From contig NZ_JAJISD010000005.1 of assembly GCF_020880995.1 (NCBI RefSeq), forward strand, positions 186,001 to 250,000: DNA of 64,000 nt, given 5' to 3'. How positions within the stretch are numbered: position 1 is the first letter of the stretch; the number at the start of each line of letters is the position of its first letter. The notes under the pieces are model-generated. The model searched no databases, was not told the origin of the DNA, and worked only from the letters and a program-made list of their open reading frames with translations. Position numbers and translations under genes: made by a program. Shown here one piece after another: positions 3,320 to 6,491 of this stretch. The stretch comes from Reyranella aquatilis. Its GTDB lineage: Bacteria > Pseudomonadota > Alphaproteobacteria > Reyranellales > Reyranellaceae.

Positions 3320-4117
3320 CTAGTCGAGATCGACGGGTGCCGCCTCGAACTCCGCCACGAGCTTGCGGCGCATGCTCTCGTGGGTGAGGTCGAGGTGCAG
3401 CGGAGTGACGGAGATATGGCCCGAGCGCACGGCGGCGATGTCGCTCGCGGCGTCGATCTCGCTCTCCTGCGGCGCATAGCCGATCCAGTAGTAGGTGCCG
3501 CCGCGCGGGTCCTTGCGCTCGACGATGTGGCCGCCGAAGCCGCGCGTGCCGGTGTGCGTGACCCGCACGCCCTTCACCGAGCCCGAGACCACGTCGGGGA
3601 AGTTGATGTTGACCAGCACGTTGCGCGGCCAGTCCATCGCCAGCACGCGGCGCGCCACGGCGGCGCCGTGGGCCGTCGCGGTGCCCCACTTCACCGGATG
3701 GTCGTGTGTGTAGGCCTGGCTGAAGGCGATCGACGGCAGACCGAGCAGGCAGCCTTCCATGGCGGCCGCGATGGTGCCCGAATAGGTCACGTCGTCGGCG
3801 ATGTTGGTGCCGCGATTGACGCCCGACAGGACGAGGTCGGGCTTGCGGTCCTTCATCAGGTGCTTGACCGCGAACAGCACGCAGTCGGTCGGGGTGCCGT
3901 CGATGGCGAACTTGTGCTCGCTGACCTCGCGCGCGCGGATTGGGCGCGACAGCGACAGCGAGTGACCGGCGCCGCTCTGGTTGACCTCGGGCGCCACGAT
4001 CCAGACGTCGCTCGAAAGCTGCGCGGCGATCTCGACCAGGGCTTCGAGGCCCGGCGCGTGGATGCCGTCGTCGTTGGTGACGAGGATGCGCGCCCTGGCG
4101 AGGTTGGCGACCTTCAT
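3320..4117 (-). CDS. surE: 5'/3'-nucleotidase SurE
   Basis: A 265-residue metal-dependent phosphatase acting on nucleoside 5'- and 3'-monophosphates. The metal-binding DD lies in [13 protein letters not shown] at the N-terminus. [11 protein letters not shown] and the [16 protein letters not shown] block supply the remaining ligands. GTPTDCV and [11 protein letters not shown] are also family signatures. Its ATG overlaps the serS stop by 4 nt (ATGA), so translation is probably coupled. The C-terminal part corresponds to the SurE dimer/tetramer arm. Confidence 0.95.
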
Positions 4118-5670
4118 TTCTTGGCGGGCATGGCACGGGGCGCGGGGATCAGCTCGAGGCCGCCCATGTAGGAACGCAGCGCCTCGGGCACCGTCACCGA
4201 GCCGTCCTCGTTCTGGTAGTTCTCCAGCACCGCGACCAGCGTGCGGCCGACCGCCAGGGCGGAGCCGTTCAGCGTATGCAGGAAGCGAGTACCTTTGCCC
4301 CCTCTTGGCCGGTAGCGCGCATTCATGCGCCGGGCTTGAAAGTCACCACAATTCGAGCAGCTCGAAATCTCACGATAAGCGTTCTGGCCCGGCAGCCACA
4401 CTTCAAGATCATAGGTCTTGCGTGCCGAGAAACCCATATCACCACTGCAGAGTGTCATTACGCGATAGGCTAAGCCAAGCTGCTTCAACACTTCTTCGGC
4501 ACGACCAGTCATGCGCTCGTGCTCTCCCTCTGATTGCTCGGGAGTCGTTATGCTAACTAATTCGACCTTGAAGAACTGATGCTGACGAATCATCCCCCTT
4601 GTATCCTTGCCAGCAGCGCCGGCTTCGGAGCGGAAAGATGGAGTCCAAGCTGTATAGCGAAGGGGCAGATCTTTCTCTTCGAGAATGGAATCACTCACAA
4701 GATTTGTGAGAGGCACTTCCGCCGTAGGGATCAGCCATCTCTTCTCAGTTCTAGTTTGCTGGCCTTGGATTGCCGAATAGAGATCTGAAAAAACAGTTGT
4801 CGCGACACTCGCGTTGTTAGCCACAAAATACTGTCGCACTCGCTTTAACGCTGCCTCTTGCTTCATCGGCTCAACATTGCCGTGGACGAGGTAGTTTCTA
4901 AGATATTTAGATAGGAATTCGGCTTTAAAGGCATTTTGCGTATATTGCGGAATGTTGTTCTTTTTATCTTGAAGGATTTTCTCCATCGCATCGTGGTCGG
5001 TAAATGTTGCTTGAAATAAATCGTCTTTGAATTTTGGAAGCTGGCCAACTCCATACACAGCATCATTCTTCACGAGCAATGGAGGATTTATTTCCGTGTA
5101 TCCTCCTTCCTCGCTCGTATGTAAGTCGAGCATGAACTGAGCAAGGGCACGTTCCAATCGAGCCAAGTAGCGCTTCAGTATTACAAAGCGTGATCCGGAT
5201 ATTTTTACAGCCTGGACAAAATCCATCTCCCCCGTGGCTTCACCAAGTTCCACGTGGTCTTTTGGCGGGAAACTGAAATTGCGCTGACTGCCAATGCGGC
5301 GACTTTCCACATTACTGTGTTCGTCACTCCCAGTCGGAACATCATCCGCTGGGATATTTGGCAGCTGGTCAAGTTGACGCTTCAGCTCCTCGTCGAGGCG
5401 CGCTGCATCGCGTTCACCCTTTTTGAGACTCTCTTCTAAGGAGACGACTTTGGCCATTAGCGCATCGGCTGGCTCGCCCTTCCGCTTAGCCATACCTATT
5501 TGCTGGCTGAGCGATTTGCGCTGAGCCTGAAGCGATTCGCTCTCTGAGATAGCAAGGCGACGGCGCTTGTCTATCTCCAGAATTTCTTTCGCCCGCGCAG
5601 GTAATCCCCGACGCTGCAGGCCTCGGTCAAATATGTCGGGATGATCCCGAATAAATCGAATGTCGTGCAT
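4114..5670 (-). CDS. serS: Seryl-tRNA synthetase, chimeric, with about 88-residue insertion
   Basis: Charges tRNA-Ser with serine. The 518 residues exceed the usual 420-430. The N-terminal coiled-coil tRNA arm (about 28-105) and class II core are present: motif 2 [15 protein letters not shown] near 347-360, [17 protein letters not shown], and motif 3 [12 protein letters not shown] near 475-486. The excess sits at about residues 222-310, between [10 protein letters not shown] and [11 protein letters not shown]. It is hydrophilic and helical-looking, with no intein motifs. Base composition is odd: 20 of 60 bases are G/C at 4921-4980 against 43 of 60 at 4141-4200. Only the last 55-60 codons have local composition. 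The reading frame is intact and all three motifs are present, so it is probably active. It is the only serS in view, in its usual syntenic slot. Confidence 0.93.
4290..5670. other. Low-GC segment covering most of serS (putative transferred DNA)
   Basis: Composition and third-codon-position use change abruptly at about 4290, inside the conserved [12 protein letters not shown] codons, and return to local style just beyond the serS start at 5670, at the tatC boundary. Flanking surE and tatC look native. Boundaries in a conserved coding block and at a gene edge are what homologous replacement by a diverged serS would leave. The GC counts are direct; transfer is inference. Confidence 0.7.
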
Positions 5671-5672
5671 GA

Positions 5673-6491
5673 CTATCTATTAGCAGATTCTTCGGCCTTC
5701 TTCTCGGCTTCCTCGGCCTTCTCTTCGGCCTCCTCGGCCGCCTTGTCCGCGGCCGCGCGCTTCCGCTCGATCACGCCGCCGATCAGGATGGAGATCTCGT
5801 AGAAGGCCATCAGCGGGATCGCGAGCGCGATCTGGCTGACCACGTCGGGCGGCGCCAAGACGGCGGCGATGACGAAGGCCACCACGATGGCGTAGCGGCG
5901 CTTGGACTTCAGCCCCTCGGTGGTGGCGATGCCGACCTGGATCAGCAGGGTCAGCAGGACGGGCACCTCGAAGGCGAAACCGAAGGCGAAGACGAGCTGC
6001 AGGATGCGTTCGAGATAGTCGGACGATCTCAGGGTCTTCTCGATGTCCGGCGGCGCGTACTGCGTCAGCATGAAGTTGATCACGTACGGCAGCACGACAT
6101 AGTACATCAGCGCGCAGCCGGCATAGAACATGAACGGCGTGGCGACCAGGAACGGGACGAAGGCCCGCTTCTCGTGGCGATAGAGGCCGGGCGCGACGAA
6201 CAGCCAGATCTGGACCGCGATCAGCGGGAAGCCCACGATCAGCGCCACGAAGGCCGACAATTTCACCGTGACGAAGAAGAACTCGAAAATGTCGAGGACG
6301 ATGACCTTGTAGCCGTCGGCCAGCGCCGGCTGGATCAGGAACGAGAAGATCGGCTTGGCGAAGTAGAAGGTGATGAAGAAGACGGCGAAGAAGCAGACCA
6401 GCGCATAGATCAGGCGCTTGCGCAGCTCGATCAGGTGATCGAGCAGCGGCATCGGCTTGTCGTCTTCAGGTCCGTCGTGCGCCTGGGTCAC
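5673..6491 (-). CDS. tatC: Sec-independent translocase subunit TatC
   Basis: A 272-residue inner-membrane protein with six predicted helices, the receptor for twin-arginine signal peptides. The cytoplasmic N-terminus holds [14 protein letters not shown], and the first periplasmic loop region holds [21 protein letters not shown]; both are TatC signatures. The C-terminal tail after residue 240 is an alternating Ala/Glu/Lys stretch likely to form a charged helix, longer than in the E. coli protein. The stop is 2 bp from the serS start. It is third in a tatABC operon. Confidence 0.96.

Follow-up and report, generated by a model that had tools for sequence, protein, structure and literature searches.

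The serS locus

We analysed a 64,000-nucleotide stretch of a Reyranella aquatilis contig (NZ_JAJISD010000005.1, positions 186,001 to 250,000; hereafter the window), in which the seryl-tRNA synthetase (SerRS) gene serS lies between tatC and surE. The neighbour names tatC and surE, and argS below, were assigned by eye from translations of open reading frames (ORFs). The features, numbered from the first base of the window, are:

5673–6491, minus strand: tatC (named by eye), native as far as about 5704, with final codons that may be part of the foreign block
4114–5670, minus strand: serS, a 518-residue seryl-tRNA synthetase between tatC and surE, and the sole serS match in the genome
4276–5704, minus strand: foreign block, running from the last tatC codons to near serS codon 463, which very probably replaces native serS
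4741–5010, minus strand: insert region, serS residues 221–310, in the hairpin preceding the LIPTAE strand
4117–4284, minus strand: native serS C-terminus, codons 463–518
3320–4117, minus strand: surE (named by eye), native, overlapping the serS stop codon

The genome is a 6.0-Mb draft of 28 contigs (completeness 99.81, contamination 0.1), and the contig carrying serS is 421 kb long. Two bases separate the tatC stop codon from serS, as they do in seven of nine relatives compared. The serS protein scored 507.4 bits against TIGR00414 (cut-off 301.65) and matched the Pfam families PF02403 at residues 1–107 and PF00587 at 308–485, both above cut-off. All SerRS columns invariant in 35 homologues were kept, presumably including the class II motif residues. 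The gene thus has both domains and all the invariant columns of a bacterial SerRS, whereas it differs from one by 86 extra loop residues and by a low-GC foreign body joined to a native C-terminus. As the genome has no other serS match, the product is probably active as a synthetase.

Composition and identity breakpoints

The GC content over 100-bp windows fell from about 0.70 to 0.37–0.60 between positions of about 4300 and 5700 and then returned to 0.69. By codon range, serS GC3 was 0.51 for codons 1–220, 0.48 for 221–310 and 0.545 for 311–455, and rose to 0.87 for codons 456–518 (1.00 for codons 466–495); codons ending in A or T made up 7% of the native C-terminus vs 46–52% elsewhere in the gene. 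We compared GC3 across 29 relative loci (L007–L035), of which 27 were measured, L012 and L027 being left out. The serS GC3 of all 27 relatives, 25 of the genus and two of the family, was 0.80–0.93.

An earlier note, made from the sequence alone, had described serS as compositionally foreign with a native C-terminus, and GC, GC3 and identity breakpoints agree with that description. Its G/C counts (20, 24 and 43 of 60) were exact, and the GC and GC3 plot it had proposed shows the drop at about 4300–5700, with GC3 near 0.5 in the block vs 0.87 after it. The note had allowed that close relatives might share the low GC of this gene, which none of the 27 does. It had placed the end of the low-GC change at the start of serS; the 5′ break lies instead in the last tatC codons. 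Positions 4921–5040, which it had counted as part of the foreign body, are truly low in GC, but 4921–5010 belong to an insert absent from relatives rather than to the shared body.

To define the close relatives, we used the 12 genomes whose argS DNA was 90–93% identical (the next genomes were at 85%). In 100-base blocks, tatC (GC3 0.92) was mostly 0.90–1.00 identical to these genomes, with the last full block at its 3′ end at 0.83–0.91 and the remaining end piece at 0.48–0.62. Downstream of serS, the full blocks of surE were 0.83–0.98 identical. A two-breakpoint fit over 2982 sites, each scored by whether the window carries the base most common among the 12 close relatives, placed the breaks at 5704 (interval 5703–5724) and 4276 (4250–4291), with identities of 0.953 before, 0.701 inside and 0.938 after the block. 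The gain in lnL was 164, vs a maximum of 13 in 100 permutations, for which the scan used a coarser 25-site grid. Inside the block, identity was uneven: the best close relative reached 0.68–0.85 by segment, highest at codons 421–440. The 3′ joint is visible directly, as most codons from 463 onward are those of two close relatives (G042 and G044), and the open frame is continuous through both joints, making an in-frame fusion. These results show that serS is a chimera of a foreign block and a native C-terminus.

We also scanned 800 kb of this genome in 1560 windows of 1 kb, whose GC averaged 0.659 (SD 0.036); the lowest value, 0.49, falls in the serS block. Low-GC islands as such are not rare in this genome, since 24 windows lie below 0.55. 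On the window's contig, other low-GC islands lie at 92,501–100,000 and 366,001–400,000 (G000:C24), and their ORFs look accessory by eye.

Phylogenetic position of the two parts

The earlier note had suggested separate trees for the two parts of the protein. In the body tree (359 columns, 46 proteins), the window serS was sister to a subclade of eight genomes (G021, G035, G037, G038, G010, G020, G050 and G068; support 95/87) on a branch of 0.26, and the 12 close genomes formed a clade without it (100/99). The C-terminus was nearest its own clade, with 95% DNA identity to G042 over 150 bases (codons 462–511), in a poorly resolved tree. The best trees thus place body and C-terminus differently, as the note had expected of a chimera, but AU tests do not reject a body grouped with its own clade. 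Holding the window body with the 12 close genomes cost 5.6 lnL (p 0.081), and a placement outside the genus, with the other 37 genus rows grouped to its exclusion, cost 20.3 lnL (p 0.0995).

The N-terminal half of the body sat on a long branch (0.37) without settling in one position, and neither grouping was rejected, whether with its own 12 genomes (AU p 0.611) or with the eight-genome subclade (0.625). For residues 312–452, grouping with the own 12 had an AU p of 0.273, and the tree united them with the eight-genome subclade at 93. Across the body, 21 sites discriminate between the two groups; 13 agree with the eight-genome subclade, six with the own 12 and two with neither. Of the residues specific to a clade, the body has none of the four of its own 12 and three of the nine of the eight-genome subclade. 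Composition and identity show a mosaic. In the best tree the foreign part appears to belong within the genus, next to a subclade that is not the genome's own, a placement that the AU tests do not settle.

An 86-residue insert in the SerRS loop

The loop preceding the LIPTAE strand has 98 residues in the window protein vs 12–13 in most relatives, that is, an in-frame insert of 86 residues, which the earlier note had overlooked. Matches to the window serS end at residues 220–239 and restart at 295–311. Among 64 other genomes of the genus, read row by row, the insert is absent from all 61 comparable members, in which a single contig carries both halves, separated by 9 or 12 bases; two genomes had no match (G006 and G043) and one matched in the N half only (G009). 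The insert shows coding-like periodicity (GC1 0.51, GC2 0.32, GC3 0.48), and the GC minimum of the serS block lies mostly in it. Since its GC3 is similar to that of the low-GC body (0.48 vs 0.51), the two probably travelled together.

AF2 predicted four helices, with a mean pLDDT of 76, for residues 217–311 modelled alone from the single sequence. In the full-length model, strands 219–224 and 308–313 flank the insert, whose block means were 39–58, and for this reason we claim only that the insert is probably helical.

We searched for relatives of the insert in several collections. Foldseek against the PDB and viral models gave no match below E 0.001. Among 385 genomes of the class, only the gene itself fell below E 0.001, the next match being at 0.0045. 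No homologue was found among plasmids or in pattern scans of viral and genome contigs, which detect close relatives only. The best matches in the PDB and PHROGs were at 0.065 and 0.018, the latter search not listing phrog_1383, and Pfam gave no match at E up to 10, where HMMER filters drop most weak matches.

A phage derivation was considered and rejected. The lone phage match, LR756511.1 (tblastn E 0.9), belongs to the virion family phrog_1383, and its protein scored 76 against the insert (shuffle maximum 49), as the best of a large database. The eight other members of phrog_1383 do not stand out against the insert; when the insert was ranked together with 2000 shuffles, a nine-member profile gave it 2.1 bits and rank 262, and a four-member profile rank 134. 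We regard the phage match as a chance best match because neither family members nor profiles stand out. An intein was also rejected, as the Pfam search gave no Hint domain; known inteins are longer than this insert. Compared with Rfam at E up to 1, positions 4000–6000 matched neither a group I or II intron nor another structured RNA, and we dismissed an intron. Three small-RNA matches lay at other loci, below gathering scores, and were disregarded.

Rickettsia palindromic elements are in-frame inserts in alphaproteobacterial housekeeping proteins, and the window insert is alike in being an in-frame insert in such a protein. It differs in being single copy in the genome, with four further matches of 15–20 bases at E 0.27 or worse, and in its RNA folding, which was not unusual (z −0.39; 67 of 200 shuffles fold equally well or better). 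With neither repetition nor a stable palindromic fold, we rejected a repeat of this type.

By coordinates, the insert occupies the same loop as insertion II (G254–N261) of human cytosolic SerRS: residue 308 of the query aligns with residue 263 of 8p7b, a 514-residue cytoplasmic SerRS chain that we take to be the human enzyme. Insertion II comprises eight residues, vs 86 extra in the window, and kinship of the two inserts is not expected. According to the review PMC10817482, insertion II lies near the active site and has a negligible role in aminoacylation. Because the window insert sits at this site, a working synthetase with an accessory domain would be expected by analogy, and the insert may be such a peripheral domain. 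We think its likeliest role, at roughly even odds, is as an accessory surface, one that would bind a partner or keep a binder off, and not as a component of catalysis.

The SerRS loop in Alphaproteobacteria

Of the 385 class genomes, 377 gave a match to the window protein, and three of their SerRS aligned straight through the insert region. Loop length was determined for an enriched sample of 85 genomes from outside the family, 25 taken by rank and 60 by place. Twelve of the 85, with nine family codes, had loops of 50–122 residues (38–110 extra):

G236 122; G427 88; G138 88; G192 80; G354 70; G151 69
G391 67; G298 64; G261 64; G195 64; G289 54; G078 50

Among the others, G327 had 38 residues, G379 had 35 and the rest 12–23. 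Three genomes had ranked high through the insert, and we chose the last 14 of the 60 by hand, several of them because an open frame was long or a match began oddly; with these 17 set aside, six of 68 had a long loop, and 12 of 85 is not a fair frequency. A named metagenome-assembled genome (L110) had a loop of 72 residues. Within the window's own family, G061, G062 and G070 had loops of 56–57 residues, and G063 and G064, which share the genus code of G062, lack the insert. In the family of G236, where 15 of 16 genomes were measured, the loop has 12 residues in 14 and 122 in G236.

Likeness among 17 inserts, including that of the window and leaving out that of G195, was compared over 136 pairs. 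Only the three family members (z 21–24) and the pair L110/G298 (z 5.6) stood out; by eye, the G195 insert resembles that of G298, with the same genus code. In nine of the 17 (G236, G138, L110, G354, G391, G289, G261, G078 and G062), insert GC3 was at least 0.2 below both flanks, and in G236 (L282, L312) an insert with a GC content of 0.34 sits in a gene with GC3 0.87–0.95. No such drop was seen in the other eight (G327, G427, G192, G151, G298, G061, G070 and the window, whose insert GC3 in this comparison was 0.47 vs flanks of 0.52 and 0.65). SerRS loops on viral contigs had at most 24 residues in the 54 of 61 loci that could be measured. Overall, the loop before the LIPTAE strand is, in this enriched sample, an insertion hotspot whose inserts are mostly unrelated and often AT-rich. 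No title or opening part of an abstract in the literature covered, which lacks most subscription journals, dealt with the SerRS loop as a bacterial insertion hotspot.

A probable parallel replacement at argS

In the argS DNA comparison, a sister genome, G060, stood out, matching in pieces at 66% and 71%. The slot of argS in this genome (L316, G060:C196, minus strand) holds a gene for 642 residues with GC3 0.51, vs 0.78–0.89 in ten others. The protein has 62 extra residues at 223–284 and is 59–63% identical to genus ArgRS before this insert and 72–73% after it. Behind the low-GC gene lies a native-like argS 3′ end of 27 codons (89%), followed by what we identified by eye as the next gene of the window; our guess is that the remnant was retained for a downstream promoter. 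The best matches of this argS were 73–74% within the order and, among the class matches listed, 65% at best outside it; on viral contigs its patterns found no match, and phage records stayed below 60%. No match listed at E up to 1e-100 runs through the argS insert, and we therefore claim no hotspot in argS. The G060 argS appears to be a second synthetase replacement in the genus, parallel to serS. An artefact is less well excluded here because of the draft quality of G060 (360 contigs, completeness 90, contamination 2).

Origin of the serS allele

We consider it very probable that a diverged, lower-GC serS carrying the insert replaced the native allele in place by homologous recombination. Composition, sharp breakpoints on both sides and native flanks support this account, which the earlier note had already proposed. 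The diverged, lower-GC serS, its catalytic domain already holding the insert, would have entered a Reyranella-type cell on a DNA fragment. The crossovers would have fallen near the tatC/serS junction and, at the far end, around codon 463 in the conserved region of motif 3, so that the final 56 serS codons and the surE overlap stayed native. The native 3′ end may have been kept because surE overlaps it. Such a single replacement by a low-GC, insert-bearing allele would account for all the parts, with recombination as the likely route and a donor probably near or inside the genus, with GC3 of about 50%.

In-place homologous replacement of housekeeping genes occurs between relatives. The serS case is alike in its native flanks, mosaic gene and retained operon; it differs in a donor GC3 of about 0.5 in a genus at 0.80–0.93 and in the orphan insert. 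Searches for the donor found none, either in the order (76 genomes) or in a pattern scan of 84,980 genomes, where 54 loci reached 76% at best with patterns that detect close relatives only.

A version of this explanation in which the donor was a phage, plasmid or other mobile element with a captured genus serS is unlikely. The gene is present in 23 phage records and 61 viral-contig loci, residence in another replicon would fit the long branch and low GC, and the argS of G060 is similar; yet the viral loci reach at most 75% identity in their best segments and have the short loops described above, phage records stay below 60% and plasmid records reach at most 62% (best 20 of 100). No mobile-element gene was recognised beside serS when ORFs were judged by eye, and the two-base gap to tatC matches that of most of the nine relatives compared.

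Less likely still, native serS might have mutated in place, through a local burst of AT-biased mutation and gain of the insert with no donor. The AU tests leave room for this, both for the body and for its N half, as does G236, where an AT-rich insert sits in an otherwise GC-rich serS. A divergence of about 30% confined to 1.4 kb between flanks of 95% and 94%, and the loss of all four residues specific to the own clade, argue for replacement over mutation.

As a motive, the earlier note had speculated that a resistant or self-immune SerRS was selected against a SerRS inhibitor, for which we found no support and which we consider very improbable. Such inhibitors exist, albomycin among them (PMC9032320), but the genome has no second serS copy, no drug-biosynthesis gene was seen nearby when ORFs were judged by eye, and the conserved SerRS columns are unchanged. 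Assembly artefact or contamination, for which only a draft of 28 contigs would speak, is hardly credible with an open frame spanning both joints on a 421-kb contig, the completeness and contamination values given above and no other serS match in the genome.

Essential synthetases are usually taken as stable markers, and here a strongly diverged allele bearing a new domain appears to have taken the place of native serS, while argS in a sister genome bears the same signature. It is possible, though doubtful, that synthetase genes of the genus are repeatedly overwritten by orphan-insert alleles from one low-GC pool and that the SerRS loop hotspot reflects a plausible arms race. The pool would be an unsampled one that supplied serS in the window and argS in G060, both with inserts in the catalytic region; at the hotspot, unrelated and often AT-rich inserts would come and go, the opponent being a SerRS binder. 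If true, the repeated gain of unrelated segments by one fixed SerRS loop would provide a testable system for studying how domains enter essential enzymes and which forces drive their entry.

Some SerRS loci are of separate interest. Several of the viral contigs with SerRS (L147–L207, 61 loci) exceed 400 kb, and an annotated serS is also present on NZ_CP148399.1, recorded as an E. coli plasmid of 73.7 kb. In addition to its gene of the genus type, G048 has a second, more distant SerRS (G048:C203, L072), 53% and 68% identical to the two query halves, which is either contamination or a paralogue.
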